Source: Microvelia longipes (taxonomy: Eukaryota; Arthropoda; Insecta; Hemiptera; Veliidae). From it: 64,000 nucleotides of DNA. Position numbers and translations under genes: made by a program. This document shows positions 1,400-49,273 of the stretch, piece by piece (positions within the stretch are counted from its first letter, which is position 1; each line of letters starts with the position of its first letter). Location: NCBI GenBank assembly GCA_018340805.1, contig JACMZG010001870.1:53372809-53436808 (forward strand), in the 5' to 3' direction. The notes below the pieces were generated by a model that did no database searches, had not been told where the DNA came from, and was given only the letters and a program-made list of their open reading frames with translations.

Positions 1400-2316
1400 A
1401 CCGCAATAAATAAAATAAAATAAATAAAAATAAATCTTTATTTGCATAAATACTAATACAAGTACAATGGCAAATCGTCAAATATACAAAAATTAGAAGT
1501 AACATAAATTACTCAAACATAATTTTATTAGAGAAGTACTCATTAATACTATAAAAAGGCTGCTCTGTCAAGGCTTTTTTTACGGCTTTTTTGAAATTAT
1601 CTATTGGCAACTCTTGAATTTTTACATCTAAATGATTGAAAAGTTTTACCCCCAATACACTATGACCCACTTCTGACTTCTTAAGTCTATGACTTGGTAT
1701 TGTAAGTACATTTTTATTCTTTGTATTATATCTATGATAATCACTATTGGTTTTAAATTTATTTAAGTTCTTTTTAATAAAAAGCACAGAATTAAAAATA
1801 AAAAGATTTATGACAGTCATTATTGCCAGTCTCTTAAATGAAGATTGACAGTGTGAACCAGGTTTGGCTCCCGTTATTCTTCTAATTATCTTTTTTTGAT
1901 AATAAGCAATGGATCTAAATTGACGTGTCCCAGGCAATAATAGCATAATTTAACCTGCTCTGAACAAGAGATTTGTAGACGAGCACAAGAGTTTCTTCTG
2001 GTAACGAGTCTTTTAACTTTCTAAAAACAAATAAGTACCTAGCAATACTTTTAGGCATTGTTGTGACATGGTCTTTCCAATTTAATTTACCGTCAATAGT
2101 GACTCCCAGAAATTTTACTGGTTGTTGTTTGTAATCAAGTCGGAGACTTATGATTAATGACTGTGTTTTATCTTTATTTAGTATAAAGTCATTGCTACTA
2201 AACCAATATTCCATTTTACTTAATCTTTGATCTCCTATTTTTTTCAGCTTAGTTTCGTCAGAAAGTATAAGTATTAATAATATAGTCACATTATTAATAA
2301 GTACGTTCACACACAC
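1400..2316 (-). pseudogene. Non-LTR retrotransposon remnant (reverse transcriptase C-terminal part and 3' end)
   Basis: Reading the minus strand from about 2316 to 1509, two frames carry the C-terminal region of a jockey/R1-like LINE ORF2. The first (2316-1915) has the usual thumb-region signature: an LNKDKTQ segment, KFLGVTIDGKLNWKDH, then a helix with SLVQSRLNYAIIAWD. The second (1946-1509) continues with YQKKIIRRITGAKPGSHC and ends in the HRLKKSE..GVKLFNHL type tail seen in arthropod LINEs. A frameshift near 1915-1946 separates the two. The minus-strand 3' end is a simple TTTAT-like tail at about 1400-1435. Catalytic RT motifs are missing, so this is a 5'-truncated dead copy. A second copy of the same 3' end lies at 24045-24170. 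Confidence 0.85.
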
Positions 2317-2461
2317 TTTAGATCCGCGTATCGTATAGAGTACGATCTCTCAATACGGTAATTTAAGCTGTATGAACCATGCGGAGGGGATCCGATCGCA
2401 TACGCTAGAACTAGGGAGATGGAATCTAAATGGATCCCCCGATACGCTGTCTTTTTGTGTG

Positions 2462-2770
2462 TGGGTAACTGCACATTACCTGGGATATCTGAACCATGTA
2501 ACTGCACATTACCAATAGTTCATTTAACAATGACCCTCCGACGAGACATTTGTAAACCAGTCTTAAATTCCTATGTCCACCACTACACATTACCTGGCAT
2601 AACTGCACCAGGTAACTTCACATTACCTGGGATATCTGCACCATGTAACTGCACATTACCAATGTGCAGTTACCTGGTGCAGATATCCCAGGTATTGTGG
2701 AGTTACCTCCCAGGTAATGTGCAGTTACCTGGTGCAGATATCCCAGGTATTGGGGAGTTACCTCCCATTC
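2462..2770. repeat. Cluster of direct and inverted ~40-bp repeats
   Basis: Repeated variants of CACATTACCTGGGATATCTG and its reverse complement occur at least seven times. Direct copies fill 2470-2660. At 2660 the orientation flips, giving a foldback: an arm at about 2622-2660 pairs with one at about 2663-2697, followed by further inverted copies to 2765. The cluster separates two minus-strand LINE pieces, so it may have inserted into or replaced LINE sequence. Confidence 0.8.
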
Positions 2771-2790
2771 TGAGCATTCACTCGTGTCCT

Positions 2791-3240
2791 CTACTTTATA
2801 AACCATGGTTCTAAGAAATCATGATGGTCATGCGTATTATTTGAAGCCTGAACTAGATCCGTGCGGACTAATAGGTTATTTTTGTAATCTGAAAAGGATA
2901 CAACTAAAGTAAAGGGATATGCAGGGAGGTCTGAAGTGTACAATACGTAAAGTAATGGAGAAACGATTCTTCCTTGCGCAACTCTGGATGTTATGTTATC
3001 AATTTTGGACAGGGAATCTTTGTATCTAACTTGAAAGACACGGCAGAAAAGGTGAGACTTAAGAATAGAGAAATAAGTGGATGGAAGGAGACTGTTGAGT
3101 TTCAGCAACGAGCCTAGGGGTCAAACTCTATCGAAAGCTTGCTTCACATCCAGCATGATAGAAGGAGAATATTGCTTGGAGAAAGGGTATGGATTATAAC
3201 AATATACAGCAATTTGATGGATGCAGCTGTTTGATGCATG
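2791..3240 (-). pseudogene. Jockey-like LINE reverse transcriptase fragment, degenerate
   Basis: On the minus strand, from about 3165 down to 2791, the frame reads a typical LINE RT palm: a SIMLDVKQAFDRV block with an in-frame stop where Trp usually follows, then LLPSTYFSILKSHLFCR, then VAQGRIVSPLLYVLYTSDLP. The last is the usual GVPQGSVLGPLLYLLYTSDLP block with substitutions. The catalytic F/Y-A-D-D region that should follow is replaced by SFSDYKN, so the copy is inactive. It could belong to the same insertion as the remnant at 1400-2316, interrupted by the repeat cluster at 2462-2770. The family (jockey-like) is inferred from motifs only. Confidence 0.8.
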
Positions 3241-7858: not shown

Positions 7859-9540
7859 ATGAAAGGAATGAATTTACTCTTTGAGGACGTGCGTAGCGAG
7901 TCCGAGGACGTGTTACAAAATAAATGTAACCACTTTTATATCCTGAGGACGAGCTAAGCGAATCCTGACTCTTATAACGACAGATTGGATTTGTCCTATT
8001 TAACCGAAAAAAATATAACCTAAACGGATAATTTAAACAAATATTTTACAAAAAAGAGTGAATTTAGTGAGTTATTAGTTATTTTAGTGAGTAAATAAAA
8101 TTGATTATAAATTAAAACACCATTATAGTATAGCAGATTATCATCAGTTAATTTAAATACCTGCTACAACTAATTTAAACAATTTAATACAATTTTGTGT
8201 GTTTTGCAAACTAAAATTATTTAAAACTAACATTAATTGACAATAAATAAAAATAAAACACGATACATTGAGATTTTCACCTTCTTATCACTCAATTTAA
8301 ATACTCGTGACAACCCATTAAAACTCTATTTTTCAATGAAATAGTGATTCTACTGAGTTGATACGCCCTAAAATTACTCTAATTAAAGCACTTTCAGAAA
8401 AAAATTAAATAAATTATAGTCACAAATAAGAAAAATCAAAAAACCTCCATAAGGGCTATAACACGATCGCCCTTTCGTTATCGGTGGCGCTGCTACGGAC
8501 TTAGAATCGCGAATGGTGTGCAGTATGGCATGAGTTTCCACAGTTTTCTTTTCGGAGTATATATTCCTTACATTTTTCTTTTAAATCGTCTGCCCATCTG
8601 ACTTTAAACAGTATGCACTATAATTCATTTCCTAATTTGATTAGGGGGGGGGGGGGGGGGGAAACGACCTGGGCCTCGGAGGCGGCTATATAAATTATCC
8701 CAGATATATTACTCAAGTTTATTCCATTCTCCATTTGATGGATTATTAGGTCTGTATTTATTTTTCAAACTTCTTCACTGATATTACCAGACAGACAGAC
8801 ATAGACTCGGTACATTCCACACGAGTCGAAACGAGTTGTACAGCTGAGTGAGGGGTTGTCTGGCGTCCAACTGATACCCGTTTGCTTGTCTGTTTGTGTC
8901 TGCGGGTCTTTTATTTCTTTAGTACAAATCCAGCGATCGAATAGTAACTGTTACTTCCCGCAAACCATTTTAGTTCATTCGCATTTTTAACTAAGGTACA
9001 TAAAACATATATTGTTCACAATTTCCAAAATTTTAATCAAAATTACATAGGATACACTACACACACTATAAGGGGCATTCTAATCAATGGGGGGGGGGGG
9101 GGGGATAACCATCGTACTTAGGTTTTTTGCCTAACTGTTTTATTTTGGGTAGTTCTTAATCGGGGATTTAATATTGGCTTTAACTTTAAATTCTAACTAG
9201 AAGGTTTATATTGTGATATTTGAAAGCATTACTTATGCTGTCGATGTAAAATAAATAACAGGTTTAAATAACGCAGCTAAAAACTCTGAGCGTAGCGAGT
9301 AATATCTTTATACATGACGTAAAACTTTAAAGGCTTTTAAAAAAGGGAATGAAAAAATTTACAGCCTCTGGCTTTAAAAAAATAAAGTTTAGCTCGTCTA
9401 CCGGATGCTATAAAAACTTCAAGTTATATAACCTTTTTTTATAGGTCTTTTTTTATTAAAGCTGTAAAATGAAGTTTTATATAGTCGGGGAGGGACTGAA
9501 GTAATAAATTGCCGGTTTACGGCCGGTCCCCCTCTCAAGA
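7859..9540. other. Intergenic DNA with two poly-G tracts
   Basis: No gene recognised. Runs of 18 G (8644-8661) and 16 G (9089-9104) occur. Short GTGCGTAGCGAGTCCGAGG / GAGCTAAGCGAATCC motifs at about 7887 and 7949, and GCGTAGCGAGT at 9289, resemble the palindromic cores of foldback elements elsewhere in the window. Confidence 0.5.
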
Positions 9541-9821
9541 AAACATTTCACTGCGGCTTGGCGCAGAGTCGAGTTTAGTGTGTTCTGTAGTTCGTTCACG
9601 CTCCACCAGGTTTCACCTCCGTATTTTTTTATAACCTTTTTGTGGGTTATAAATTATTTTTTTGTTTTTGTTTACTTTCACTGTGCAGTTTTGAAAAAAG
9701 TTAACGCGTTTTATGTGATTGATTGTTTTTTATCAATGTGTTGAATTTTACTATATTGGTTAGGATTTTGTCGAGTAAATTAGTCCTAATTTAAGTGAAG
9801 TTACTGTCGAAAGAAATAAAT
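9541..9821 (+). promoter_or_regulatory. Putative promoter and 5' leader of YR exon A
   Basis: The 280 bp before the ATG include a locally GC-richer stretch (about 9548-9620) followed by a T-rich leader. No clear TATA box or initiator was identified, so this is placed by position only. The chosen start codon is ATG 9822 in the context aataaATGG-like with A at -3; the upstream GTG in frame is not a credible eukaryotic start. Confidence 0.3.
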
Positions 9822-10895
9822 ATGGGTGACAATAGCGAGATTATAGATTTAGAAGACGATTCTAATCCTGAGTTTACCCTGACTGAACTCCCTGAGAAAA
9901 GTAGAATTATTTATGAAAATACGTATAACATGTTTATTAAGTGGGCCCAAGAGAATAACTGCGCTGATTATTCTGAGGAAACTTTGCTGGAATATTTTCA
10001 AGAATTGGCCAGGAATTACAAAAGTTCCACACTGTGGTCCAAGTATTCCATGCTTAAGAGACTTATGCTTACCAAGGTTAATATAAACATGTATGGATAC
10101 AGAAAGTTACTGAATTTTGTTAAAAAATGCAATTCGGATTATGTTCCTAAATCTACAAAAGTTTTTACTCAGGAACAATTTGAAAATTATTTAGAGTATG
10201 CACCAGACGAGGAACATTTAGCTGCTAAAGTCATATTGATTTTTGGTGTATATGGAGCCTGTCGATGCGAAGAATTAAGAAGCATATGTGTCGACGATAT
10301 AAATGACTTGGGACGTGTTGTTTTTGTTTCTTTAAAAGATTTAAAAACAAAAATGTCGAGGTCATTCACAATATCGGGTGAGAAGTATTGCAATATTTAC
10401 AGGAAGTTTGCTTCTCTGAGACCCACGTGTATGGAAACGGATAGATTCTTTATAAGGTACCACCAGGGTACATGTACTCGCTGTGTTATGGGAATCCACA
10501 CTATAGGCACAGTACCTCAAAAAGTTGCTAAATTTTTAAATCTACCGAATCCGGAAGACTACACTGGTCATTGTTTTCGAAGAACATCGGCTGAATTTTT
10601 AAGTTTAAAAAGATACGGTGGTTGGAAATTATCATTACCTGAACCACCCTCAACCGAAAAAACCGAAGCAAACTATAACCCGATACTCGACAATGAAGCT
10701 CTAGATTCCATTGTAAGCAATGAGTTGGTGGATCCACCCATTTCTTCAACGCAACCTATCTTTGGTGTACACCAACCTGTAGCTTCTATGCACCAAACGT
10801 CATCACCTATAACCAGCGTCCAGCTTGGTATCACTAACAGTGAGAGTGATGTAACAATGAACCAAGAAGAAGAAGAAGATCTTTTCAATGATGGT
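9822..10895 (+). CDS. Crypton-type tyrosine recombinase-like domain protein, exon A (predicted N-terminal half of a YR/MADF-BESS fusion)
   Basis: A single intact exon of 358 codons starting MGDNSEIIDLEDD. An acidic leader of about 25 residues precedes a helical core-binding-like region (LPEKSRIIYENTYNMFIKW, then SSTLWSKYSMLKRL) and a catalytic-like region. Residue R148 lies in GACRCEELRS, the tyrosine-recombinase box I context. H250 and R253 lie in YTGHCFRRTSAEFL, the H-x-x-R box. Compared with active YRs, the stretch between AEFL and KRYGGWK looks shortened, and I see no catalytic Tyr after GGWK, so strand transfer is unlikely; a DNA-binding role is inferred. The tail (residues about 275-358) is Pro/Ser/Gln-rich and ends in an acidic EEEEDLF. 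The exon ends at GATGGT followed by GTAAGT, a consensus donor in phase 0; unspliced reading runs only eight codons to a stop. The acceptor at 15287 has matching phase. Family assignment (Crypton/DUF3504-like) rests on motifs and is moderately sure. Confidence 0.8.
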
Positions 10896-11519
10896 GTAAG
10901 TATTTTCTATTTTTCATGATCAACCATATTGAGACATTCATAGTATGTACTTTCACATAGTGTTTATGTGAGCTTCATAAAGCACTACAACCCTGTAAGG
11001 TAAACAATTCTATTTGTACTCAGACCAAAGCCATGATTAAATTTCCCTCTTAATGTCATCTACCCTTGGCTGTGCCGTCTCTTAATATCAGGACTTTAGA
11101 CATTTTACCTTTTGTTAAACATTTTTGGATTAGTTGTTTGATTCTAACCAAAAATTGAACAAATAAGGCCTGTACTGATGTCAATTAGTAAAGTCAGTCT
11201 TTAATAAAATAGAGAGCTCTCATGTTTATTTACGTTATTTTAAATTGATTTTAATTTACACACATGTAAAAATTTATAAATTTGAAAAAATGGCTCGACA
11301 TGTTGAGCACTTAGGTTAGATTTGCTTCAGTATGCAACGAGTTCCTCCTTGCATAGGGTTTAATTAGCAGAACTGTTTGTTTGAGTTAGTTTTGTCAATC
11401 AGCTTTGATTTGTTTCCTAATAAGAGAAGTATAACACTATATATTTGAAGTAAATCGTGACTTCTTTGTTCTGTGAGACTTTTTTACACGTGCTAATCTA
11501 ACCACACAACCTTACTTCC
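10896..11519 (+). other. Intron or intergenic DNA after exon A
   Basis: Begins with the donor GTAAGT at 10896. No coding segment was recognised. If exon A splices to the MADF exon, the intron would be about 4.4 kb and span exon set B. Confidence 0.5.
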
Positions 11520-11539
11520 ATCTAATGGCCATACTTAAA

Positions 11540-11655
11540 TCTATCCAGCCATATTTACATCCATCCAGCCTTAACTACATACATCCAGTCATACTTACAG
11601 CCATCCAGCCTTACTTACATCCATCCAGCCTTATTTACATTCATCCAGATGTACT
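11540..11655. repeat. 20-bp tandem repeat (about 5.5 copies)
   Basis: Copies of CATCCAGCCTTACTTACATC with point variation. It lies between the two YR exon sets. Confidence 0.9.
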
Positions 11656-12080
11656 TATTATCAATTTGTTGTTTTATTCACCATGGATTTGTAAAGCGTT
11701 GTTTATAAAAACTATAGTAGGACAAGAAAAGTGAATACTTGCTCATATGCTGACATACATACATCAACTGGTGCTTTTTGTCTCCTATAATTGTTATAAC
11801 TGCACGACAAGCGTCATCAAATAAACTTGTTTTAGCACCCACAAAAAATACCCCAAACAAATATATACCCAAATAATAGAAAAAAAATGAATGTGCACTT
11901 TTTGATATACAATGAATGCAATGCAATGACGAAACAGTACAAATACCAAGTCCTACAACCAACAAATAACTTAAAGAGAAATGTCAACATGTACACATAA
12001 TCTTTTTTTTTATTTCCCAAAAATGGTTAAATAATTTCTAAAATTATATCTAGTCAAACACTTTATAGGGACCTTTATTT
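11656..12080. other. AT-rich DNA, nothing identified
   Basis: No splice-supported coding region. Reading frames on both strands are low-complexity. Confidence 0.5.
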
Positions 12081-12084
12081 TAAA

Positions 12085-12168
12085 TTATTAAAGCTTTTGA
12101 GGAGGAATAGGTTCAAATAATAAAAAAAAAATTTTGGACCTATTCCTCCTGAAAAGCTTTAATAATTG
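12085..12168. repeat. Hairpin-forming inverted repeat between the YR exons
   Basis: The left arm ATTATTAAAGCTTTTGAGGA then GGAATAGGTT pairs with the right arm GGACCTATTCCTCCTGAAAA then GCTTTAATAATT around an A/T-rich loop. Arms are about 32 bp with few mismatches. It may be a very short MITE or a hairpin in the transcript of the A-type pre-mRNA. Confidence 0.75.
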
Positions 12169-12821
12169 AAGTAAATTTTAATAATTAAAACATTGCCAAG
12201 AAAATAAGGGTAAAATAGCCTGATATACTTCTTGCTGGGACTTTTTTTTCTTAAAACTCAGTGGTGCCTAAACTGACCTGTCAAGATTTTTAAACTAAAC
12301 GATAGACTGTAGTGCAAGTTTTTAGTTATCTGTCTCTATCTAACAAGATCTCAATCACACCCGAAACTTACCATATATTGTTTGGTCGACACCAAAACAA
12401 ACTGTGTTTTGGCGCAGCGGATGTGATTAGTCAGCAGATTGGTCCCGTATTATTTGATTGTATTATTAGAAAGTTTGTTTTCTTGTTGTTAATGAAGTGC
12501 ATGTTTACCGTGATGTTTAAATCATTTTCCTTATTTTAGTCAAATATTTGATAGTAGTCATTCTTTTCAATTAAATTAATTAAAGTTCATAATAATTATA
12601 ATCATATCATAATAATTATAATCATTATAATAAGAGTGTAATGTCTGACGTTTTATGTTAAAACTTAAAATTAAAAAACAACAATAATATTGTCCGCCAT
12701 ATTTAGTTAAGCAAACGTAGTGATAACGGTAAAGCAGTAAACGTAACCAAAACAAACAAACCGTTTCGGAATTTTTGTTAAGGGCTTTTGTGATATTTAA
12801 TAGTTTTCCTCCAAATATCCG

Positions 12822-14504
12822 ATGGAGTTAAGTGATTCGGAAGAAGATTCACCGACCGACATTGCGAGTGAGGATTTCTTTGAGGAAGACGGCTCGGAAA
12901 ATAAAACTACTTTGATCGTTACCATACCTATCACATCTGAAGAGAGATACGAGAGTGCTTACAGAAAATTTATCAGTTGGAAAGAGAAAAGAAGTGAAGA
13001 AGAATTTCATATATTTTCAGAGGATGTATTTATGATGTATTTCGAACATATGTACCATGACAAGCAAATGAAATCGTCTTCGCTGTGGTGCAACTATTCC
13101 ATGCTGAAAGCCAAAGTCTTTATCAACCATAACGTAGATATTTCTAATTACAGTAAATTGAAAAGGTTCATTAAAAGCAGAGCTGTCAATCACGTACCTA
13201 AAAAGACTAAATTGTTTCAAACTTGCCAAATTAATGATTTCTTGCGCAACGCTCCAGATGATACATATTTATTAATTAAGGTATGTCATATTTCTATGTT
13301 TAAGTATAGTAGATAGCATTGTTCTGACTCTATCTCTTGCTATGGTCCAGTCTGTCAAATTAGTTTTTTTTATTGGCTGTAATGGGCTACATACCCCTAT
13401 CTAGATCAATTCTCTTTGTTTTGATTAGTTATCTAATCATATACATATCTAAGTAACAAGATATGTATATGCACTGTTAAGTTTTGCATACTACATTACA
13501 GCTGTCCTTAGTGGCAGTCCAGGTTTCTCTAACGTACGACTTAAAGCACCAATTTTACCTTATTGGAGAAAACGTTAAAGTCAGAGCACTGTACTGACCA
13601 CTTATCCCTTATATTTTATTCAGTTTATGTGACACTAAATTTAAGGTGAGTCATTTTGCCAATTCACATTTTAACTTTAAGAAAATTACGAATACAAGTG
13701 TTTTGCTGCCCCCTCCCACATTTCCCTTTTATATCTCACCCTGATATTGGGCTCAAATAGTCAACCAAAGCTGATACAAATAAAAAATATCAATTGAGTG
13801 TCGGAGCTCAAATTTATTAATTGGAGGAGTTGAACTATAGGTTCTCTTGGGGATTAAAGCCTCATCAGATGTTTAGATATTTGCACGTTTCAGTAAGCTT
13901 TTAGAAAATGTTTTATTACTTTGAAAATCCTATTATTTTATCTAATGTTATATTGGTATTTTTCTAGGTGGCATTGATAATTAGCTTGGCTGGTCAATGT
14001 CGAAAACAGGATCTACGCAACTTGAAGGTGGCGCATTTGAAAGATCAAAACTCGATCCTACACATTTCTCTACCAGGTTTCAGAAATAGAGCTCCCAGAA
14101 CTATCACTTTAACCGGTTTCTTTTATGAGATTTACAAGAAGTATGCGGTACTCAGGCCGGCTAACTATGACGGTCCGTGGTTTTTTCTCAAATACCATAA
14201 AAACAGATGTTACCGGGCGGTTGTTGGGGTCAACACGTTTGGGAGAATGCCTTTAGCCATAGCCAAGTATTTAAAACTAACGGATCTCGACTGCTACACT
14301 AGTTCGAGTTTCAGACGATCATCACATTATGTCATTGAAGAGTTAAATTGTTTTGAAGTCGTTGCAACTCAAAGTTTTGGTGAATTAGAATCCTCTCTGG
14401 ATTCCCAACATAGTGAAAGTTTTAATGAGGAAATTAGCAGCTCTGTGAATGATTATGAGGCTCCATCTAGCTGTCATAGTTTTATATCTGATGATAACTT
14501 ACTT
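12822..14504 (+). CDS. Crypton-type tyrosine recombinase-like domain protein, exon set B (exons 12822-13280 and 13968-14504)
   Basis: Two exons of 459 and 537 bp (332 codons). The first starts MELSDSEEDSPTD and ends ...LLIK before GTATGT at 13281. The second begins VALIIS after TTTTTCTAG at 13967. Both junctions are phase 0, and the joined sequence aligns with exon A throughout: SLWCNYSMLK versus TLWSKYSMLK, HVPKKTK versus YVPKSTK, GQCRKQDLRNL versus GACRCEELRSI, YKKYAVLRP versus YRKFASLRP. Box I Arg is R165. The H-x-x-R box reads YTSSSFRRSS, so the catalytic His is replaced by Ser266 while R269 remains. Nothing like the GGWK segment or a catalytic Tyr follows. The tail is Ser/Glu-rich. The exon ends SDDNLL before GTAAGC (14505), phase 0, matching the MADF exon acceptor at 15287. 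Likely non-catalytic and DNA-binding. Clearly an old, diverged duplicate of exon A rather than a recent copy. Confidence 0.8.
13281..13967 (+). other. Phase-0 intron within YR exon set B
   Basis: 687 bp bounded by GTATGT and TTTTTCTAG. It splits the domain just before the box I Arg region, at a point where exon A is uninterrupted. Confidence 0.85.
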
Positions 14505-15286
14505 GTAAGCATGTATAAAGTATTTCATCTTTATTTGCCTTAGGAAATTTTAAAGGAAAGTAATATTTGGGATAACTGTGGATGTGTATGTTTCCTAAAC
14601 ACTCATATCCACTGTGAAATACATTGTTTTCCCTAATATCAACATGGAAAATAATAATTTTACTTCCATAAATTTAAATGTTTCAAAAATGTATAATACA
14701 ATATGTCAAAATGGGTAAACCTTACAGGTTTAGGCTACCTTCATACATATATTCTCATCTAGTTTTGGTGAATTCACTGAATTCCATCTTTGATTGGATT
14801 CCTCTTGATGTAAAAATAAATAAATTAGTGATTTATGAAATGTTTCAGTGCTGTATTAAAACTACTTTTATCTGCATTTCTGTGATTTTTTGGTATTAGT
14901 TTGTTCATACCTTACCTACATTTACTCTTCAACACATCTGTGTTAGTAGTGCTCTAAACATTGTTCTAGTGTTCCATACCCCCCCCCCCACAAAGAGAGA
15001 CTCTATTTCCAATAGACAGTTTGAGAAACACTGAAGGCCTGAAGGGAAAGCTGCTAGATTTGCCCAAAAGTTTTAACTCTACCTGTTTACATGAAATTAT
15101 TTATTCGTTTTAATTTCTTATTAATATGTCTTAACTTGTAACAAGTTGTTTTTGTTTGGAATATTAATGTTTAGAAATAAAAAGTTATGTTGCAAAAAAA
15201 CGAACGAGACGAGTTGGTTTGCTTTTGGTATTTTCTGCAGCGTGATATTGCTGTTTGTCTAATTTAGTGTTTATTGTTTGTTCCAG
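14505..15286 (+). other. Phase-0 intron joining YR exon set B to the MADF exon
   Basis: 782 bp from GTAAGC to TTGTTCCAG. It contains a C-run at about 14979-14989. The phase at both ends is 0, and the frame stays open across the predicted junction (…DNLL then CINMNSDQ…). Confidence 0.7.
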
Positions 15287-17143
15287 TGTATAAACATGAA
15301 TAGTGATCAGTTAATAGAGTTGGTCAAGGGCTATCCATTCCTGTATGATGTAGGTCATAAAGAGTATGGTGATTATCAGAAGAAAGAGGTGGTCTGGAAA
15401 TATATAGGCTCTCAGCTCGGCTCTAATGGTAACAAATGTCATTATAATCTAATAGACTATATTCATATTATTAATAAAGGGGTTTGTATGGCTCAAGACC
15501 TGGGTCACCTGCCTTTGTAACACAAGTCACTTTCTAACAGGTTCAAGTCCCACTGGGGACAGTTTTTTTTATGTTAAAAGGTTTTATTTCTTAATGAAGA
15601 GCAGAATTGATATTTTCCTTGTAGCCTAACTAAAATTGATTATGGAGCCTATGCTGGGACCCCTGAGTTGCTAGTAAGGTGAATAATGCTTAGTTAACAT
15701 CCTTGAGTTATCTGACTGTGGCTTCTGGGACTGTCAGTGTATTGCCCAGGGAGTAGAACAAGCTGTTCTCATCACTCCTGTAAGCCTAATTACATTTTAC
15801 TTATTTCCTTCCCTCTGCTAGAACATTATATTAACTACATCATTTATTTATTTTTATTATTTATATTTTATAAGTTAGAAGCCTCTCTCTCCGTGGACTT
15901 GACACTCAAAGTTCATTTGTTCCCAGTTTGAGTTTTCCAACTAATCTACTTTTGCTGTTAATAAATTAGTATTAACCAGTAACTGCAAGTTTAAATTAAA
16001 ATGCCATTATACATCTGTTCCTCTCTGTGGGAAAAATGTTATGTCGTACATTAAATTGCATATTAACTAAAACACTTTCAAGTTTAATTTAAGTATGATA
16101 TGCAAGTATGATTAATTCATATGTCAGTAGTAATTTTTTCTAGATTTCCAAAATGAAATATGCTAAATCACTTTAATGTTGCACTTTATTGCTATTTCCT
16201 TGAAAAATTAAAAAAATGATTTATTAGTTGAAGTGGTGCTTAGACCGAAAAATGGATTATTGAGCAAGAAATCAAGCATTGCACTGTAAATTTACCCAGA
16301 TTGTAGGCCACTATGCCAGGATTTCAAATTAAGGGGCCTCGAACTAAAATATTCTGCTTATGCACGCTATAATTGCGAGCTGAGTTCATAATCCAGTCAG
16401 TCCCATTAATGTGCGTGCAAAAATCAATTTCATTAATATAGATTAATTTACATTTGTATATTTTTTTAGAATTTGATTGTAAAAGAGCTTGGGCTTTATT
16501 GAGGGATGCATTCAGGAGAGCAATGAAACGGCACAAAGAGACGTCAGCTCCGCTGAAAAAATGGAAATATGAAGACGAGATGTCATTTTTAGTACCTCAC
16601 CTAAAGGAGAGATCAGGCGGTAAATATTCACCTCAAGTTAATGACCATGGTTACCCAGGTCCTTCTGGAGCACCGCTAAACGACAATTCAAATTCACCAC
16701 CCCAAGGGAATAATGAAATTTTGTCTCCTCAAAATCCTCATGAATTATTAGATAGTAGTGTTAGGAATTCTACAGAGTTGACCAATAAACGAAGGAGACT
16801 AGATGATCAATCACTTTCTGGTCAAAACGATGAACTACAGCAATTCTTCAACGGAATGTTGCTGACAGTGAGAAAATTTCCACCGAGGGACCAAGCTATT
16901 GCGAAAGCCAAAGTGTTCAAAATTATATCTGATCTAGAAATTGAAATTTTGAGTAGGCCTCAAAACCATCATAACCATTCGAATGAACAAACGATTCAAT
17001 TAAAAAATTTAACTGATTTAATCTACGACCCTTCCTCTTCTTATAACACTGAAGTTAAAACTGAATATAACAGTAACTATGAACTCAGCGCTCAGAATTT
17101 CTGTCAAGTTGAAATGAAACAGAATCAAATGAACCCCAGTTAA
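15287..17143 (+). CDS. MADF-BESS DNA-binding protein module (exons 15287-15428 and 16470-17143)
   Basis: Exon 1 carries the first half of a MADF domain: LIELVKGYPFLYDVGHKEYG then YQKKEVVWKYIGSQLG. The donor at 15429 (GTAACA) cuts after the first base of a codon. The acceptor TTTTTTTAG at 16469 restores the frame with EFDCKRAWALLRDAFRRAMK and LKKWKYEDEMSFLVPHL, completing the roughly 85-residue MADF domain with its usual conserved Trp residues. After about 90 Ser/Asn/Pro-rich residues comes a BESS motif (about 16838-16953) beginning QQFFNGMLLTVRKFPP and ending ISDLEIEIL. The stop is TAA at 17141-17143. MADF domains bind DNA and BESS motifs mediate protein interaction in insect transcription regulators (family knowledge). 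Translation could start at ATG 15296, four codons into the exon (256+ residues, standalone), but the exon is in frame with both upstream YR sets, predicting a 603- or 629-residue fusion. No frameshift or internal stop. Confidence 0.85.
15482..15566 (+). repeat. tRNA-like SINE head inside the MADF intron
   Basis: A perfect-looking B box GGTTCAAGTCC at 15540-15550 lies about 50 bp after an A-box-like TGGCTCAAGACCTGG at about 15488. Acceptor-stem pairing is not evident, so this is read as a SINE head or decayed tRNA pseudogene rather than a tRNA gene. The associated body probably extends to about 15800. Confidence 0.45.
16138..16469 (+). other. 3' part of the MADF intron
   Basis: AT-rich and ends with the polypyrimidine tract and TTTTTTTAG acceptor at 16461-16469. 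No other feature. Confidence 0.6.
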
Positions 17144-19717
17144 TTTTTAAGATGTTTCAACTTTATTAGGGACCTTTCTCTCTCTAATCCTTAAAAAAAG
17201 TTTTGTACAAGGTAAGGCAAGAACAGCATGGAATAATGGCACTGCAGAAGGTAAGGAAAGAAAAACATGGAAAAGTGGTACTTAAGAAGGTAAAGCAAGA
17301 TTCTTACTTTAGAATATCTAGCTATGCCATTCTGTCACAAGTAGTGTCTTATTGCCATGAGGAGTTGAATTGGCTCTTACTTTAGTGAGCTTACTAGACT
17401 CTGCCATGGAGTAGGTAATAATGTGATATTTGGTTATAATAATAATCACTTAAAATCCTCAGTATATTGGATCATTATTTTATAATCACTTGAAATCTCT
17501 CTCGTATAGTTATATTATTGTAAAAGCATAATTGTCAGATGAAAATTTACTAAATTATATAACTATGTTGTTGTCATGATGGTCAGATAGGTTTGTAAAC
17601 AAGTTACGTTTGTATGTTAAAAGATGTTGTTAATGTTACTGCAGACTGTTTGTCCGTAAGTTACGAAATTATGAAATTGAAATGCTGTGTAAATACTCAA
17701 CTCAAAGTTTTTTTTTCCGAAGATGTTCAAACATATTGGAATAATATTTTTTTTTTATAAAATATTATATATCTTATATAATATATTTATATAATCTTAT
17801 ATTTTATATTTATATAAAAAGTTTCAAAACTCAATACCTATATACATTTGGTACTCTTTTTAACATTTGGTTGGCCGTTTCTGTATTTTTTTAAATTTTT
17901 TTCCTATTAGTGTTGTTATGAATCACCTGTTACCAAAATTCATGTTGGAAATAAGAAAACAATATTGGTCTTGGATTCTTGTTTTACTTTATTTTATTAA
18001 ATATATCATTTTGTTGTTATGTTGTTAAAGAATCATTGTCCCAATTATACTTGAAACCAATAAGATAATGTTACTAAAGAGAGTTTGCTAGGGCCTGTCT
18101 CAATACATCTGGATGCCAAACTAATGTTTATAGGGTCCTTAAAGTGCTATGTAGCTTCCTCTCAGAGTTATAAAGTTATAATTAATAAATTGATTTTAGT
18201 GTTTTAGACATTGCAAACAATTCATATTTCTTGCTTATGTGATGTACTGTATTTTTTCTGTTAATTTATTTTTTTAACTTTCGTAGGTGTTGATGTTATC
18301 AAGTGCTGCAATAACCCTCCTTTCAAACGACATTATTATTATTATTATTTTATTCTAGTCAGGTAAAAAAAATCAGTGGCTTATGACTTTGCAATATTTA
18401 TTATTACCAGTTTTAAATTTAAATTTGCTTCAAGTCAAATCCCTTTCCACATGATCTCTTTCATATATATTTCAAGCTCTAAACCAAATCTTCCTCTGAT
18501 AGATTTAAATTTAGGTTAAATCACTTATATTAACTCTAAATTAAATCTTATAAATAATTCTTTAACTTGAATTTTTTACCATGTTAGATAAAAAGATGAC
18601 TAAGTTAGTGGTTTAATAACTGATTGTGATTGTCAGGCTCAAGTCAAGCCACCTTCTTTCCTGCTCTCACTTATTCAAGTCTGGTCACAAAAACTTTTTA
18701 GTTGAGCTTACCTTATGTCCTTATTATCCTTGACCAACTCTATAATTGAGATTTACTTTAAAAGTTAATCCTCAAACAGTATTGTCTCTAATATTGTAGT
18801 GTTAAATCAATCTTGTTTATAAATAAAATTAAATTAAGATGAGTTAATTATGGCAAAAGAGCAGTAGGTACCTCAGTCTCTCTACAAATAATTTTGTTTA
18901 TTTCCAAAAATTCTCAAAACCCTTTGGGCCTAACCAGAGACCATTTCAGTGCCTGGCAAAATAAATAAAACTTAAACATAGTTGACAAATATAAATGTGA
19001 AAAGTTACATTAAAAGTAAAATGATAAGTATATAATAGAAAAATAAAAAAAGTAGAGAAATATAATAAAAGCATTAAACTTAATTGCATTTCTTATTGAC
19101 AATGTCTATCTATATGAAGAGTAGAAAGAAAGACATATTTAAAAATGTGGCTTCAAAGCATTACTTAATATTTATGGTTAACTATGTGATCCCATGAAGT
19201 GCCTGCAGAGCACTGATGATTGCCACATGGCTGAAACCTTATTCTATATTTATACTTATATAGTATTATTTGAATGAAAAAGATTTTTACAGTAATAATG
19301 TTTGAATAAAATTAGTAGTTTTACTGTCGAGAGACTGATTTTCATCAGCTAGCCATATTTTGTATTGCACTACTTATCGTGTTCATCTAATTCTAAACAA
19401 ATATAGAAAGTGAGAAAATGTGGCAATATTTGTAAATAATGTAAATATATATGTATGTAATAAAGTATTTAATTATTAAGTTGTGTATTTCTTTGTGAAT
19501 CTTCAAAAGAAATCTCTATTGAGCCCAGGAAGGACCAGTTGCAGCGATTTAGTTGTTCTATAGCAACTACGTTCCCTTAAGGCAGCAGAGAAAATAGTTA
19601 AGCTTGCCAGCTTTAATCGGTTAGACTCGTGTATTTCTGGTGTCAGAAAAACTAGAGTACTCAATTTTTACTTGATTATTAGATATTTGTTATGACGGTT
19701 TAAACATTATTTTATAA
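17144..19717 (+). other. 3' flank and possible 3' UTR of the MADF-BESS gene
   Basis: A 39-bp imperfect duplication at about 17206-17284 (GTAAGGCAAGAACAGCATGG versus GTAAGGAAAGAAAAACATGG, then a third partial copy) follows the stop codon. Candidate polyadenylation signals AATAAA occur at 18184-18189 and 19459-19464; which one is used cannot be judged. The rest is AT-rich with no other coding signal. Confidence 0.5.
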
Positions 19718-29784: not shown

Positions 29785-32700
29785 TGAGGTCAGGACTTCG
29801 CGTAGTCAATCCGAGCAGAAACTTAGCGTAGTCAATCTGAGCAGAACTTAGCGTAGTCAATCTGAGCAGAACTTAGCGATGAGCAGAGCCAATAGCAGAA
29901 CTTAGCGTAGTCAATCCGAGCAGGACTTAGCGTAGTCAATCCGAGCAAAAATCGAGCAGAACTTAGCGTCAATCCGAGCAGCGACTTAGCGTAGTCAATC
30001 CGAGCAGAACTAGCGTAGTAATCTGAGCAAACTTAGCGTAGTCAATCCGAGCAGAACTTAGCGTAGTCAATCTGAGCAGGACTTGTAGTCAATCCGAGCA
30101 GAACTTAGCGTAGGTAGCAGGAAGTCCGAGCAGAACTAGCGTAGTCAATCTGAGCAGACTTAGCGTAGTCAATCCGAGCAGGACTTAGCGTAGTCAATCT
30201 GAGGGTAGTTAATCTGAGCAGAACCTTAGCGTACAATCGAGCGGACTTAGCGTATCAATCCGAGCAAGAACTTAGCGTAGTCAATCTGAGCAGAACTTAG
30301 CGTCCAATCGAGCAGAACTTAGCGTAGTCAATCCGAGCAGAACTTAAGCGTAAACTTAGTCAATCTGAGCAGGACTTAGCTAGCGAGCAAAGTCAATCCG
30401 AGCAGAACTTTAGCGTAGTCAATCTGAGCAGACTTAGCGTAGTCAATCTCGAGCAGGACTTAGCGTAGTCAATCTGAGCAGGACTAGCGTAGTCAATTGA
30501 GCAGGACTTAGGTAGTCAATCCGAGCAGAACTTAGCGTAGTCAATCCGAAGCTTTATGAACTTAGCGTAGTCAATCTGAGCAGAACTTAGCGTAGTCAAT
30601 CCGAGCAGAACTTAGGTAATCTGAGAGAACTTAGCGTAGTCATCTAGCAGAACTTAGCGTAGTCAATCTGAGCAGGACTTTAGCGTAGTCATCAATCGAG
30701 TCAGGACTTAGGTAGTCATCTGAGCAGGACTTAGCGTAGTCAATCCGAGCAGAACTTAGCGTAGTAATCTGAGCGAACTTTAGCGTAGTCAATCGAGCAG
30801 GAACTTAGCGTAGTCAATCTGAGCAGGACTTAGCGTAGTCAATCCGAGAGAACTTAGCGTAGTCAATCTGAGCAGGACTTAGCGTAGTCATCCGAGCAGG
30901 ACTTAGCGTAGTCAATCTGAGCAGGACTTAGCGTAGTCAATCCGAGCAGGACCTTAGCGTAGTCAATCTGAGCAGAACTGTAGTCAATCTGAGCAGGACT
31001 TAGCGTAGTCAATCTGAGCAGGACTTAGCGTAGTCAATCTGAGCAGGACTTAGCGTAGTCAATCCGAGCAGGACTTAGCGTAGTCAATCTGAGCAGGACT
31101 TAGCGTAGTCAATCCGAGCAGAACTTAGCGTAGTCAATCTGAGCAGGACTTAGCGTAGTCAATCTGAGCGTAGTCAATCTGAGCAGGACTTAGCGTAGTC
31201 AATCCGAGCAGGACTTAGCGTAGTCAATCTGAGCAACTTAGCGTAGTCAATCCGAGCAGGACCGAGTCAATCTGAGGACTTAGCGTAGTCCATTAGCAGA
31301 ACTTAGCGTCAATCTACTTAGCGTTAGTCAATCTGAGCAGGACTTAGCGTAGTCAATCTGAGCAGGACTTAGCGTAGTCAATCTGAGCAAGAATTTAGCG
31401 TAGTCAATCCAGCAGACTTGCGTAGTCAATCTGAGCAGGACTTAGCGTAGTCAATCCGAGCAGACTTAGCGTAGTGAGCAGGACTTAGGTAGTCAATCTG
31501 AGCAGGACTAGCGTACAATCTGAGCAGGACTTAGCGTCAATCTGAGCAGGACTTAGCGTAGTCAATCCGAGCTTAGCGTAGTCAATCCGAGCGGACTTAG
31601 CGTAGTCATCGAGCAGGACTTAGCGTAGTCAATCTGAGCAAGACTTAGCGTAGTCAATCGAGCAGGACTTAGCGTAGTCAAATCTGAGCAGGACTTAGCG
31701 TAGTCCGAGCTGAACTTAGCGTAGTCAATCCGAGCAGGACTTAGCGTAGTCATCGAGCAGGACTTAGGTAGTTTAGCGTAGTCATCTGAGGACTTAGCAG
31801 TCAATCTGAGCTTAGCGTAGTCAATCTGAGCAGGACTTAGCGTAGTCAATCCGAGAACTTAGCGTAGTCAATCTTAGCGTAGTCAATCGAGCAGACTTAG
31901 CGTAGTCATCTCGTAGTCAATCTGAGGACTTAGCGTAGTCAATCTGGCAGAACTTAGCGTAGTCAATCTGAGCAGGACTTAGCGTAGTCATCTGAGCAGG
32001 ACTTAGCGTTAGTCAATCTGAGCGAACTTAGCGTAGTCATCCGAGCAAACTTAGCGTAGTCTAGCGTAGTCAAGAGACTTAGCGTAGTCAATCTGAGCGA
32101 ACTTAGCGTAGTCCAATCTGACTTAGCGTAGTCAATCGAGCAGGACTTAGCGTAGTCAATCTGAGCAGAACTTAGCGTAGTCAATCTGAGCAGAGCGTAG
32201 TCAATCCGAGCAGAACTTAGCGTAGTCAATCTGAGCAGAACTTAGCGTAGTCAATCCGAGCAGAACTTAGCGTAGTCAATCTGAGCAGGACTTAGCGTAG
32301 TCAATCAGCAGAACTTAGCGTAGTCAATCCGAGCAGGACTTAGCGTAGTCAACTGAGCGAACTTAGCGTAGTATTAAGTCATCGAGCAGACTTAGCGTAG
32401 TCAATCTGAGCAACTTAGCGTATCAACTCCGAGCAGAACTTAGCGTAGTCAATCTGAGCAGGACTTAGCGTAGTCAATCGCAGGACTTAGCGTAGTCAAT
32501 CTTTAGCGTAGTCAATTAGGCGTAGTCAATCCGAGCTGAACTTAGCGTAGTCAATCTGAGCAGAACTTAGCGTAGTCAATCTGAGCAGACTTAGCGTAGT
32601 CAATCTGAGCAGAACTTAGCGTAGTCAATCTGAGCAGGACTTAGCGTAGTCAATCCGAGCAGAACTTAGGTAGTCAACCTGAGCAGGATTAGCGTAGTCA

Positions 32701-33864
32701 ATCTGAGAGGACTTAGCGTAGTCAATCTGAGCAGGACTTAGCGTAGTCAATCTGAGCAGGACTTAGCGTAGTCAATCTGAGCAGGACTTAGCGTAGTCAA
32801 TCCGAGAACTTAGCGTAGTCAATCTGAGCAGGACTTAGCGTAGTCAATCTGAGCAGGACTTAGCGTAGTCAATCTGAGCAGGACTTAGCGTAGTCATCTG
32901 AGCAGGACTTAGCGTAGACAATCAGGCAGGACTTAGCGTAGGAGCACTTAGCGTAGGTCAATCCGAGCAGGACTTAGCGTAGTCAATCGAGCGACTTAGG
33001 TAGTCAATCTGAGCAGGACTTAGCGTAGTCAATCTGAGCAGGACTTAGCGTAGTCAATCTGAGCAGGACTTAGCGTAGTCAATCCGAGCTGAACTTAGGT
33101 AGTCAATCTGAGCAGAACTTAGCGTAGTCATCTGAGCAGGACTTAGCAGGACTTAGCGTAGTCAAACTGAGAGGACTTAGCGTAGTCTTAGCGTAGTCAT
33201 CCAGAACTTAGCGTAGTCAATCGAGCAGGATTAGCGTAGTCAATCTTAGCGTAGTCAATCCGAGCAGGACTTAGCGTAGTCAATCAGCAGGAGCTTAGCG
33301 TAGTAAGCGTAGTCAATCCGAGCAGAACTTACAATCTGAGCAGCGTAGTCAATCTTAGCGTAGCTGAGCAGGACTTAGCGTAGTCAATCTGAGCAGAACT
33401 TAGCGTAGTCAATCTGAGCAGACTTAGCGTAGTCATCGAGCAGAACAGCTAGTTTCTTAGGTAGTCAATCTGAGCAGAACTTAGCGTAGTCAATCCGAGC
33501 AGGAACTTAGCGTAGTCAAACAATTAGCGTAGTCAATCTGAGCAGGACTTAGCGTAGTCATCCGCAGAACTTAGCGTAGTCAATCCGAGAGCAGGCTTAG
33601 CGTAGTAGTCTTAGCGTAGTCAATCGAGCAGAACTTAGCGTAGTCATCTAGCAGGACTTAGCGTAGTCAATCTGAGCAGAACTTAGCGTAGTCCAGCAGA
33701 ACTTAGCGTAGTAGGACTTAGCGTAGTCAATCGAGCAGGATTAGCGTAGTCAATCCAGCAGAAACTTAGCGTAGTCAATCCGAGCAGAACTTAGCGTAGT
33801 CAATCGAGCAGGATTAGCGTAGTCAATCTTAGCGTAGCGAGAGGACTTAGCGTAGTCATCTGAG
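29785..33864. repeat. 4-kb array of a 25-bp satellite
   Basis: The unit is GAGCAGGACTTAGCGTAGTC plus AATCT. The length gives room for roughly 160 units. Two alternations are mixed throughout (CAGGACTT/CAGAACTT and AATCTG/AATCCG). Many units have one-base deletions or insertions or are truncated, which makes the period irregular. There are no spacer sequences. The array ends abruptly at about 33864 in unique DNA. Confidence 0.97.
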
Positions 33865-44970: not shown

Positions 44971-45098
44971 TGGCTCCCCAATTCATACCTTCGGTTGAAT
45001 TTCAATCTGCAGGCTCTTTGGCGGGGATCATCCCTGGGTCTTCTTTTTTAATAAGTAATACTATTCCCGTAGCCGGGCGCTTTAGGATGGTAGCTGTA

Positions 45099-46325
45099 TT
45101 ACCAATTCTTACCTCCACTTTCCGTACAAGCCCATCTTGACTTGGGAACACTTGCGTTATGACAGCGGGGCCAGGTATTTCTCGGTTGTGACTGGTCTTT
45201 AACTATCACGATGTCCCCTACTTCCAGATTTCTTTCTTTCCTTGTCCATTTTTCTCTATGCTGCAATCCTAGCAAAAACTCTTTTTTCCATCGCGACCAA
45301 AATTCTTGGCTAAGGTGCTGGACATGCTTCCAGCGTTTTCTACTGTACAAGTCGCTCTGTCCAAAGTCGCCAGGTGGTGGTGCTCCTGGAGGGTCCTTTA
45401 AGGTCAAAATATGGCTGGGTGTTAGTGGCTCCAAAGAATGCGGATCAAACAGATTGTTAACTGTTAATGGTCTACCGTTAATAACAGCTTCACACTCACA
45501 GAAAAATGTCCTCAAACCATCATCACTTAAAAGGCCCTCATGCGTTCTAAGAGATAATCTAGAATGCGTCTAGCTGACCCAATCTGTCTCTCAACGACTC
45601 CATTCATGTGGCTGGCTGTCGGGGTGTTAAACAAGAACTCACAAGACTTGTCTGCCATAATTTTTCTAACTGCCTCCACATCGATCTCTTCTAAACCTTT
45701 TTGCAATTCTTTCTTCGCTCCCACAAAATTTGTTCCCATATCACAGCGTAATAGCTTAACGTCTCCTCTTCTACATAAAAACCTCCGTAGAGCGTTAATA
45801 AACGAACTGGTGTCTAAACTATCCAGTAAGTCTATGTGCACCTCTACACGCTAAGCAGGTAAAAAGAATACCATAACGCTTAACCTCTCTTCGTAGATTT
45901 CTGACATAAAAAGGCCCGAATACGTCGACCGCGCTATGAGTGAATGGTGGAGCTGGTGTGACACGATCAGTCGGTAGATCATTCATTTTCTGATGAATGA
46001 ACGGACCCCGTAAACGTTTACACGACACGCATCGCCCGATAAAATTAGCAATCGCTGAACTACCCCCAATAATCCAATAACCCCTGCTTCTAATTTCGTT
46101 AGCTGTAATGCCACGACCCTGATGGTGTACGGCCTGATGATAGTGCCAAATTAAAAGAGTAGCGAGGTGTGACTTTCTAGGAATGATAACGGGGTGCCTT
46201 TCCGATCCTGGGAGGCTGGAATGTTTAATTCTACCCCCCACTCTTAATATTCCTAGAGGGTCTAAAAGGATCAAGGGGTGAAATACTGGTTCTTTTCCTC
46301 CCATCCTTGATTTAAGGACCTCCAA
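45099..46325 (-). pseudogene. BEL/Pao integrase and DUF5641-like C-terminus, frameshifted
   Basis: The first segment (46325-45819) has the zinc-binding HHCC region (HYHQAVHHQGRG ... CVSCKRLRG) and the first catalytic Asp in HSAVDVFGPF. The next (45841-45527) has the second Asp in LLRCDMGTNFVG, where a DNG/DRG type triplet is usual, and the catalytic Glu in NGVVERQIGSARR. The third (45515-45099) begins CECEAVINGRPLT and includes LEPLTPSHIL and VGDIVIVKD, typical of the C-terminal DUF5641-like region. Two frameshifts separate these parts. The integrase would insert element cDNA in the nucleus, but this copy cannot encode it in one frame. Confidence 0.9.
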
Positions 46326-46327
46326 AT

Positions 46328-47187
46328 CTAACTGAAAGTACTTATTTTATACATTTTTATAATATGACTCTCAGCTAAGCTTAATTCCGAAATCGATAAA
46401 GGTTTATTAGTTAAACTGTACCGCGTACAGTCTTCCCCCCTCAAACGTACCTGTAAAATCAAAATTAGTCTACGAATAATGGCTACGTGTCGCTTTAATT
46501 TGGTCCAATTACTAAACTTATCGATTTTCTTTTCAAGAAAGTTATTTTTACTAGAACTTACAACTTTTCTTACGTGAAAATTACCTTGCTCTTTCCTAAT
46601 TTCAGGATCTTCCGAATTAACTTCTATTTTTGGGTGTTCAACCCAAGACTTAGACTCTTCCCAAAGAAATGTTGGTCCTCTAAACCAACATGAGCTCTTC
46701 AGGTCTAAAACTGAGGTGCCTCTAGAAGCAAAATCAGCAGGGTTCTCTTTAGATGACACGTATTGCCATTCCTGTGGCTCTGAACAATCACGCAAAATTT
46801 GTACCCTATTCGCTACAAAAGTGTGAAAACGTCTAGTTTCATTATTTATATATCCTAAGACAACCTTACTATCCGTCCACATATACCTTTTCAGAATATT
46901 ATAACCCAATTCTTTTGTAAGCGTTGCTGCCATACAAGCCATAGACACGGCTGCCGTCAACTCAAGTCGAGGTATAGTTATCTCTTTTAACGGTTTAACC
47001 CTAGCCTTACCGAAACTATTCCACAATGAATTTTTCCACCATCATAGACAAACCTCAGGTAGCTCACGTATCCATATCCTAGTTCAGACGCGTCAGAGAA
47101 ACAGTGCAATTGAATGTCTTCTATTTTTTGCGCATTCTCTGGCTTATAGCATCGTGCTATCTCTATAGGGTTCTGACTAATTGACAA
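46328..47187 (-). pseudogene. BEL/Pao RNase H region, frameshifted
   Basis: Two overlapping frames. 47187-46987 contains LHCFSDASELGYGYVSYLR with the first catalytic Asp. 47026-46328 contains ITIPRLELTAAV (Glu) and MWTDSKVVLGYI (Asp), followed by the conserved WQYVSSKENPADFASRG stretch that in BEL/Pao elements follows RNase H. The acidic triad is present, but one frameshift near 47000 separates the first Asp from the rest. Confidence 0.9.
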
Positions 47188-48151
47188 TACTTCCCGTATC
47201 CATTTTTCCCATTTGTATTTTTTCCTGTACAGGTATTTCTTCGTCCCAGTTTTGGCTGTTTCCAGAAATTCTGCTTAGCCGACAAAGGTCTTGTAAAATA
47301 AATTTCCCAACTATTACTACAGGTGATAAGAATCCTAACGGATCATAAATTGAACATATGGTTGACAAGATGCCCCTTCTTGTAAATGGTTTGTCACTAA
47401 TGACGATTCTAAACGTAAATACATCTGCCTCAAGACACCAAGATACACCTAGAGCTCTTTCCACCGGTAATTTGTCTAAAACTTTTAATTCTTGAATCCC
47501 GGTTGCTCGATCTTCTAAAGGTATAGCTTCTATAACCTCAGGATGATTCGATATAATTTTGTGAAAACGGAATCCTCCCTGAGAGCATAACTTTTGTACT
47601 TGCTTGATTAAATTAACGGCAGAAACCACCGTAGGGGTAGATCCGATTCCATCATCAACGTAAAAATTGTCAAAAATAAATCGAGCAGCTTCAGAGGTAA
47701 CTAAATGTCCCCAGTCTTTTGCTGTTCGACGAAGCGCGTAATTCGCACATCCCGGCGACGAGGCTGCCCCAAAAAGATGCCTTGTCATACGGTATTCTTT
47801 TGGTGTTTTAGAAGTATCTCCCCCCTCCCACCAAAGAAAAGAGAAAAAATTCCTATCTTCTTCCGGAACAAATACTTGTAAAAACATCCCCTCAATATCT
47901 CCCATGAAAGCAATTCTCTCTTTTCTGAACCTAAGCAAGACGCCTATTACTGAATTTGTCAAATCTGGACTTGATATTAGAAGGTTATTTAGAGCTACCC
48001 CCTGGTATATAGCCGAGCAATCAAAAACAACGCGAATTTTTTGTTTCTGGGGATGATATACTCCGTGATGTGGTAGATACCACACTCTCCCTATTTTTTG
48101 ATGCTCAGGGTTAGCTTCTTCAGCGTATCCCTTTTCAAATAGATCATTCAT
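47177..48151 (-). pseudogene. BEL/Pao reverse transcriptase with Pao-type peptidase region
   Basis: The longest intact pol segment (324 codons). RT motifs in order: VWYLPHHGVYHP, KIRVVFDCSA, LRFRKERIAFMGDIEGMFLQ, RMTRHLFGAASSPGCANYAL and the catalytic box FYVDDG. The C-terminal part (VERALGVSWCLEADVF ... RGILSTICSIYDPLGFLSP) matches the region annotated as Pao retrotransposon peptidase (A17). The N-terminal RT start lies in another frame at 48216-48626. The catalytic Asp pair is intact, so the domain itself looks functional. Confidence 0.93.
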
Positions 48152-48215
48152 AAATTTTAAATAATCTTCTTTATACTTCTCGTCACTAACTTTCTTTTTA
48201 GTGACTTCAGCCTAG

Positions 48216-48626
48216 CTATAGCCATAGCCTTATTATTTCTACAGATATATTATCATCTTTGAGCGGCAGCGGCATTTCGTAGTGTTTATCCTCTCTATGT
48301 ACAAGTCCTCTCTCAATTTTTTGTACAAATTCTCTATCCGAAATTGATGGAGCTAAATTATAACTAACTTTTTCACTTCCATCATCTATTTGAAAAATAT
48401 TCATGATTTCTTTAACCGAAATTCTATTTGAAACAGATATATGTGTACCATAAGGCTTAGGGCCTATTATCCCCCATCCAAGAACCGACTTTCTTCCGTA
48501 TGGTTCATTCGGTCGGCCTTGTCTAACATCCAAAGGGCAAAGGGCCTCAGGACAGTTATTTCCTATCAGCATCGAAATACTTATATTTTTTATTATTGGT
48601 GTAATATTTTTAGCGATATCTTTCAA
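48216..48626 (-). pseudogene. BEL/Pao protease-RT linker region
   Basis: 136 codons with ISMLIGNNCPEAL and PYGRKSVLGWGIIGP, the conserved stretch between protease and RT in BEL/Pao polyproteins. Ends in a frame change before the RT segment at 48151. Confidence 0.85.
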
Positions 48627-48731
48627 ATGTGCAAACTGATTGGCTAACTCTGGTGTTGCTATTTCTTCAATGGTTCCCGTATAAAATCCCTAGTGTAAGT
48701 TTTTTTAGGTAAACCTATAACAGTGCTTTCG

Positions 48732-49265: not shown

Positions 49266-49273
49266 TCGGTTTA

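Follow-up and report, generated by a model that had tools for sequence, protein, structure and literature searches.

The gene BEAF-32 encodes two proteins with different DNA-binding N-termini on a shared half that carries BESS, presumably through alternative promoters, and its BESS mediates self-interaction (PMC5021357). A comparable arrangement built from transposon sequence is that of vertebrate KIAA1958, where two alternative Crypton-derived exons, 26% identical in human, lie in one gene, their alternative splicing being, by that paper's own account, not confirmed experimentally (PMC3212892). The present analysis concerns a locus of related layout in Microvelia longipes, within a stretch of 64,000 nucleotides (here 'the window'; contig JACMZG010001870.1, positions 53,372,809 to 53,436,808, forward strand), where two units encoding Crypton-type tyrosine recombinase (YR) domains, termed A and B, lie upstream of a conserved MADF-BESS gene. 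The preferred reading, given a probability of about 0.45, is that of one unit of ~10 kb in which both YR heads can be spliced to the MADF-BESS half.

BEAF-32 resembles the locus so read in its outline of one gene with presumably alternative promoters, two N-terminal DNA-binding modules and a shared BESS-bearing C-terminal half, whereas its N-termini are given as ~80 residues with BED fingers, not YR, no MADF is described for it in that account, and both of its proteins are established where splicing in the window is predicted from DNA. KIAA1958 is alike in that a single gene holds two Crypton-derived domains, each in an exon of its own and serving as isoforms, but belongs to the DUF3504 type and to vertebrates, with MADF unmentioned in its account (PMC3212892). 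The preliminary description of this DNA had known of no described gene of this design, a claim that does not survive these two precedents (PMC5021357; PMC3212892): the two-headed layout is already known, and what would be new, if real, is the pairing of a Crypton YR with MADF-BESS. In the open-access literature, subscription papers lying outside the search, no paper was found that pairs Crypton with MADF, or MADF with a tyrosine recombinase.

That host genes can capture transposase domains is known in principle. MADF genes are thought, with some reserve, to derive from PIF transposons (PMC10027918), and animal Cryptons, in a context that includes CryptonI, are described as carrying no C-terminal domain (PMC3212892). 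Should the junctions be real, a MADF-BESS gene would have captured a Crypton-derived domain twice over at a single locus, the two-headed layout would have arisen again from different transposon parts, and the locus would allow a direct test of site choice on DNA by a dead YR domain; should they not be real, a pair of probably domesticated YR genes remains.

Domains and exons of the locus

The exons were rebuilt from the DNA, giving the following layout, with CpG content expressed as the observed/expected ratio.

9150–9821, plus strand: CpG-rich 5′ flank of exon A, probable promoter and 5′ untranslated region (UTR) (CpG 1.31, against a window background of 0.92)
9822–10895, plus strand: exon A, with the YR at about residues 17–261, then a predicted disordered, acidic-ending tail of ~97 residues; catalytic Tyr missing (Pfam, protein search, model, alignment)
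10896–12350, plus strand: A-to-B spacer with intron-like CpG depletion, a GTAAGT start, a 20-bp tandem repeat and a long hairpin (CpG, splice scoring, repeats)
12351–12821, plus strand: CpG-rich 5′ flank of exon B, probable second promoter (CpG 1.43)
12822–13280, plus strand: exon B1, N-terminal half of the second YR (profile comparison; no Pfam family of its own)
13281–13967, plus strand: intron within B, where many other Crypton copies of the genome also stop matching
13968–14504, plus strand: exon B2, catalytic half of the second YR, with catalytic His, Trp and Tyr lost and a phase-0 GTAAGC donor (alignment; Phage_integrase E 0.21)
14505–15190, plus strand: B-to-MADF spacer, nearly CpG-free (1 CpG against 15.3 expected)
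15191–15286, plus strand: small CpG cluster (15201–15241), competing acceptor at 15241 and acceptor before 15287; possible MADF-proximal promoter (CpG, splice scoring)
15287–15428, plus strand: MADF exon 1, its own ATG 15296 at the start position of several relatives (Pfam, alignment)
15429–16469, plus strand: intron within the MADF domain (exon rebuilding, alignment)
16470–17143, plus strand: MADF exon 2, second half of MADF and BESS-like C-terminus; stop at 17141–17143 (Pfam, alignment, genome search)

Exon A (358 codons) ends in GATGGT/GTAAGT and B (332 codons over its two exons) in TTACTT/GTAAGC, each in phase 0, and MADF exon 1 follows TTCCAG, with the codons C I N preceding ATG 15296; joined accordingly, the rebuilt exons give fused lengths of 629 and 603 residues. 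No internal stop or frameshift occurs in the A, B or MADF exons. Because stops make up 7.1% of codons in the noncoding sequence of the locus, the stop-free frames of A (P ~4 × 10−12) and B (~2 × 10−11), and even the A tail by itself (97 codons, ~0.0008), are not attributable to chance. Past their donors, the frames of A and B run on to a stop at the 8th and 13th codon, respectively.

A and B encode Crypton-type YR domains from a Crypton-like family of insects. When 5.8 billion proteins were searched with A, 14 of 1071 candidates matched (37–47% identity in local alignment, best E 3 × 10−59), including moth, ant, wasp and firefly YR proteins. Pfam gave SAM-like (E 2.4 × 10−5) and Phage_integrase (E 2.6 × 10−4) matches to A, both under the curated cut-off, and was silent for B1; profile comparison aligned B with the A family over 242 columns (probability 100, E 2 × 10−46), the identity between A and B being 36%. 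An AlphaFold2 model of A from 15 sequences (mean pLDDT 70.9) is confident over about residues 17–261, disordered beyond, and is predicted to adopt a Cre-like fold: Foldseek returned 66 matches at E ≤0.001 (best 9.8 × 10−8), and among the 50 matches listed all are tyrosine recombinases by name, with Cre and its derivative Tre first. The SAM-like N-terminal domain and catalytic core that make up the YR fold are found in A by Pfam and by the Cre fold, and in B by profile comparison. A search of PDB sequences with A returned no match, and three NCBIfam matches to B1, all far below cut-off, were judged to be chance.

Catalytic positions were read off the alignment against the complete YR set, R-K-H-R-H/W-Y. 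A retains R148, K175, H250, R253 and W268, with Tyr in place of His at 265 and no Tyr at the nucleophile position; B retains just the two Arg, its K, H, H/W and Y positions being changed. Neither carries the complete set, and both are predicted to be catalytically dead, the catalytic Tyr being absent from both and the conserved His also from B. The insect Crypton-like YR proteins P0001–P0011 belong to the same family, at 37–43% identity to A in local alignment, but differ in having no MADF in the precomputed Pfam listing and in that the Tyr motif is present in 7 of the 11; the models of the other four, like A and B, lack the C-terminal Tyr region. One of these proteins, P0007 of Cotesia glomerata (named isoform X3), is a model of 617 aa whose YR breaks off ahead of the Tyr and which has ~350 further residues without Pfam match, possibly another YR head on a host gene.

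The conserved MADF-BESS gene is a member of an arthropod Adf-1-like family. Its MADF domain scores 71.6 bits against a Pfam cut-off of 22, and its BESS-like C-terminus, at 16.0–16.5 bits against a cut-off of 21, aligns with conserved columns in 13 relatives. The 268-residue protein matched 16 of 269 candidates (P0015–P0030), from beetles, butterflies and moths, a bee, a wasp, aphids, a millipede and a scorpion, three being unnamed; the 13 that were aligned are 33–51% identical, and the relatives share MADF, a conserved C-terminal motif and a similar start, whereas the window copy is without part of the middle region. Among nine N-terminally complete aligned relatives, five start at the residue of ATG 15296 and four start 1, 4, 24 and 27 residues earlier; the other four aligned are fragments beginning inside the gene, three of them at or beside the position of the MADF intron in the window, which suggests that this intron is conserved. 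The gene is single-copy in its own genome, a second copy being discarded because both genome matches are its own exons. No YR domain was found at E 1 × 10−3 near eight other MADF places of the genome (3.1–3.3 kb each), and the one match in a PDB sequence search with MADF (E 0.064) is not meaningful. On all of these points the preliminary description holds: its exon coordinates, phase-0 donors and acceptor, intact coding exons and products of 629 and 603 residues emerge again from the rebuilding, while YR identity of both N-terminal units agrees with the protein search, profile comparison and Cre-like model, and a MADF gene with a BESS-like end agrees with the domain scores and the alignment of relatives.

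Copies of the recombinase units in the genome

The own-genome search with A gave 115 matches, many with internal stops, with 114 of 878 candidates scored; besides A itself the best full-domain matches are 38–39% identical, one short stretch reaching 51%, and the multiple near-identical copies expected of an active transposon were not found for A. The best match to B outside the locus, among the loci fetched for A, is ~39% identical. Intact frames, active-site loss and the lack of near copies together argue for domestication and not mobility, so that A and B are probably domesticated; on the same grounds the view of A as a decaying transposon was rejected. Tree end branches are long, at 1.12 changes per site for A and 2.15 for B, and part of this length could date from a still-mobile lineage; with such branches, a test of A and B as one clade (p-AU 0.38) neither supports nor rejects their being closest kin through tandem duplication. 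Of the 28 loci fetched for A (four of these 28 overlap pairwise), 10 cease to match A exactly at residue 137, the position of the B intron; the intron is therefore common in the Crypton family and absent from A; a few other Crypton copies are likewise uninterrupted there.

The same loci include a repeat of ~1.3 kb, represented by L022, in which Crypton exon 1 alone was detected. It is 88–98% identical to at least 14 other fetched loci and has the look of a Crypton family that is non-autonomous; neither A nor B falls into a group of this kind. Another locus, L012 (positions 1423–3000; C518 of the own genome, ~38.527 Mb), holds a 525-aa open frame with two tandem YR domains (DNA 82% identical), the match of each YR half ending before the Tyr region, and is related at ~71% to L017, L026 and L036.

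Splicing, CpG footprint and rival readings

Splice sites were scored with a model that is approximate in its weights. The donors of A, B, the MADF intron and the B-internal intron rank among the best 2.4%, 3.8%, 6.9% and 0.35% of all GTs in the window, respectively, with scores of 2.68 for A and 1.99 for B, the latter (14505) outscoring every other donor in exon B2. Among AGs, the acceptor before 15287 ranks in the best 0.85%. GTs matching or beating the weaker of the A and B donors occur at 0.0020 per base, which places the chance of such a donor at 0.047 in the last 24 bases of the A frame and 0.076 in the last 39 of the B frame (product 0.0036, with a further factor of ~9 for phase 0 in both, an arithmetic done after the sites were seen). 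Since no donor scoring above 0.8 lies between B and MADF, the partner of 15287, if used, should probably be sought in B, in A or still farther upstream. The splicing of A or B onto MADF is a frame-compatible prediction.

CpG decays along methylated gene bodies. Gene bodies are the favoured site of methylation in many invertebrates, and in the cnidarians studied it is higher in introns than in exons, promoters or intergenic DNA (PMC8857917). The background ratio of the window is 0.92 (sd 0.19), taken over 499 overlapping 1.1-kb windows at 2–9 kb and 19–64 kb; against this, the two accepted introns stand at 0.33 and 0.26, the A–B spacer at 0.32, the B–MADF spacer at 0.07 and the 3′ flank to 19 kb at 0.22, with exon values of 0.76 (A), 1.07 (B1), 0.80 (B2), 0.21 (MADF exon 1) and 0.68 (MADF exon 2). 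Between 14361 and 15417 there is only one CpG other than the four clustered at 15201–15241. Two-state segmentation of the window under three settings called a depleted domain at 10709–12282 in all three and another at 14398–19504 as one piece in two, split in the third; elsewhere in the 64 kb one setting calls nothing, one the first 761 bases, and the loosest four stretches of 286–1299 bases. The 28 loci fetched for A average 0.74 (sd 0.18, lowest 0.48), and several hold depleted domains. The pattern at the locus is compatible with a single methylated transcription unit that has promoters at A and B and perhaps a third, small one at MADF, without proving it.

If the locus is one unit, two Crypton YR copies would have become host sequence upstream of the MADF-BESS gene, A and B each with a promoter of its own in the CpG-rich flank, and the phase-0 donors of both would be spliced to the MADF exon at 15287. 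Three outputs would result, YR-A-MADF-BESS, YR-B-MADF-BESS and the ancestral MADF-BESS, the last from the small promoter or the conserved ATG 15296. The YR halves may bind DNA but leave it uncut, the target of MADF would be DNA or chromatin, and the BESS-like end might pair the protein forms, by analogy with BESS in BEAF-32. That all of this holds together, such that two unlike dead Crypton YR domains are alternative heads of one MADF-BESS regulator, BESS pairs the two headed forms with one another and with the form that has no head, and the whole is a BEAF-32 counterpart made from transposon parts in which two transposon-linked classes of domain meet, is rather unlikely.

A number of observations weigh against the one-unit reading. 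Of the fusion put forward in the preliminary description, the compatible frames, donors and acceptor stand, together with a CpG pattern that fits one unit; the A–MADF and B–MADF junctions themselves are predictions from DNA. The exon sides of the A and B donors are weak, with T and not G at −1; the A frame contains a stronger GT at 10378 and a second phase-0 GTAAGC at 10713; and the acceptor at 15241, 46 bases upstream of 15287, scores 5.2 against 4.6 and, entered in phase 0, leads to a stop after eight codons. CpG depletion would mark long 3′ UTRs of distinct genes just as it marks introns; the coding exons other than MADF exon 1 retain their CpG (0.68–1.07); the B region (12283–14397) is not called depleted, though the B intron is; depleted domains are frequent in this genome, occurring in two of five arbitrary 10-kb control stretches (28% of bases); two other MADF genes, whose introns were located from the split matches to MADF, show no depletion in those introns (0.70 and 0.87); and codon-position CpG, tried as a test of protein constraint, failed to show the predicted pattern. 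The preliminary description had proposed looking in related insect genomes for YR and MADF in one gene model; among 1179 protein candidates of fusion length (~346–1100 aa) no YR-MADF protein appeared, the one match to the MADF half being a 363-aa scorpion Adf-1-like protein without YR. As neither A nor MADF had a near-identical match, closely related species seem to be missing from the protein database, so that absence from it is weak evidence.

A rival to the one-unit reading is that of three neighbouring genes, namely two tandem domesticated YR genes with their own 3′ UTRs and a stand-alone MADF-BESS gene starting at ATG 15296 from a small promoter near 15200, an arrangement that is quite possible if short of even odds. 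YR is listed in none of the 16 MADF relatives (one of which is without any listing), and Met stands at the position of ATG 15296 in seven of the nine complete ones aligned, from which it follows that the MADF exon can serve as its own start; the CpG cluster suggests a promoter there, and acceptor 15241 would end the YR messages. The frames of A and B stop soon past their donors, with AATAAA within ~300 bases after each stop (11203 and 14815), but this motif occurs every 383 bases in the window, and its presence there therefore says little. Three genes are also hard to square with a phase-0 GTAAGY just ahead of the stop in both frames, and with a depleted A–B spacer that reaches 12282, nearly to the CpG-rich flank of B, and would need a 3′ UTR of ~1.4 kb for A.

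An intermediate arrangement, in which B alone is spliced to MADF and A is an independent intron-free domesticated YR gene, draws on the proximity of B to MADF, on the standing of 14505 within B2, on the lack in A of the intron that B shares with many Crypton copies, and on the AATAAA soon after the A stop; it is nonetheless improbable, given that the A donor scores slightly above that of B and that the A–B spacer is CpG-depleted too. Very improbable is the view that A and B are decaying Crypton insertions whose intact frames and donors are coincidental: the genome does hold at least 115 matches to A, many with internal stops, as well as a recent Crypton repeat, but the frames are stop-free despite long branches, A has no near-identical copy, and active-site loss argues against autonomous mobility. 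The single ~10-kb unit with both heads spliceable to MADF-BESS is preferred to these readings.

Within the A-to-B spacer, positions 12075–12175 form a near-perfect hairpin with arms of at least 38 bases and a loop of ~15 (fold z-score −12.6; none of 200 shuffles as stable), which could be a small-RNA precursor or a fold-back element; it has no Rfam match and no other copy in the fetched loci, and Rfam over 9000–19500 gave no match at gathering score. Elsewhere in the window, the minus strand at 45000–51000 carries remains of a BEL/Pao-like retrotransposon in several frames, with Peptidase_A17 in two, an integrase zinc-binding domain in one and two further frames without match. A long tandem array with a unit of ~25 bp spans 29791–33833 at a GC content of 0.45–0.48, against 0.34 for the window, and reverse transcriptase remains lie on the minus strand at 1918–2349 (RVT_1 E 0.0006, below cut-off).

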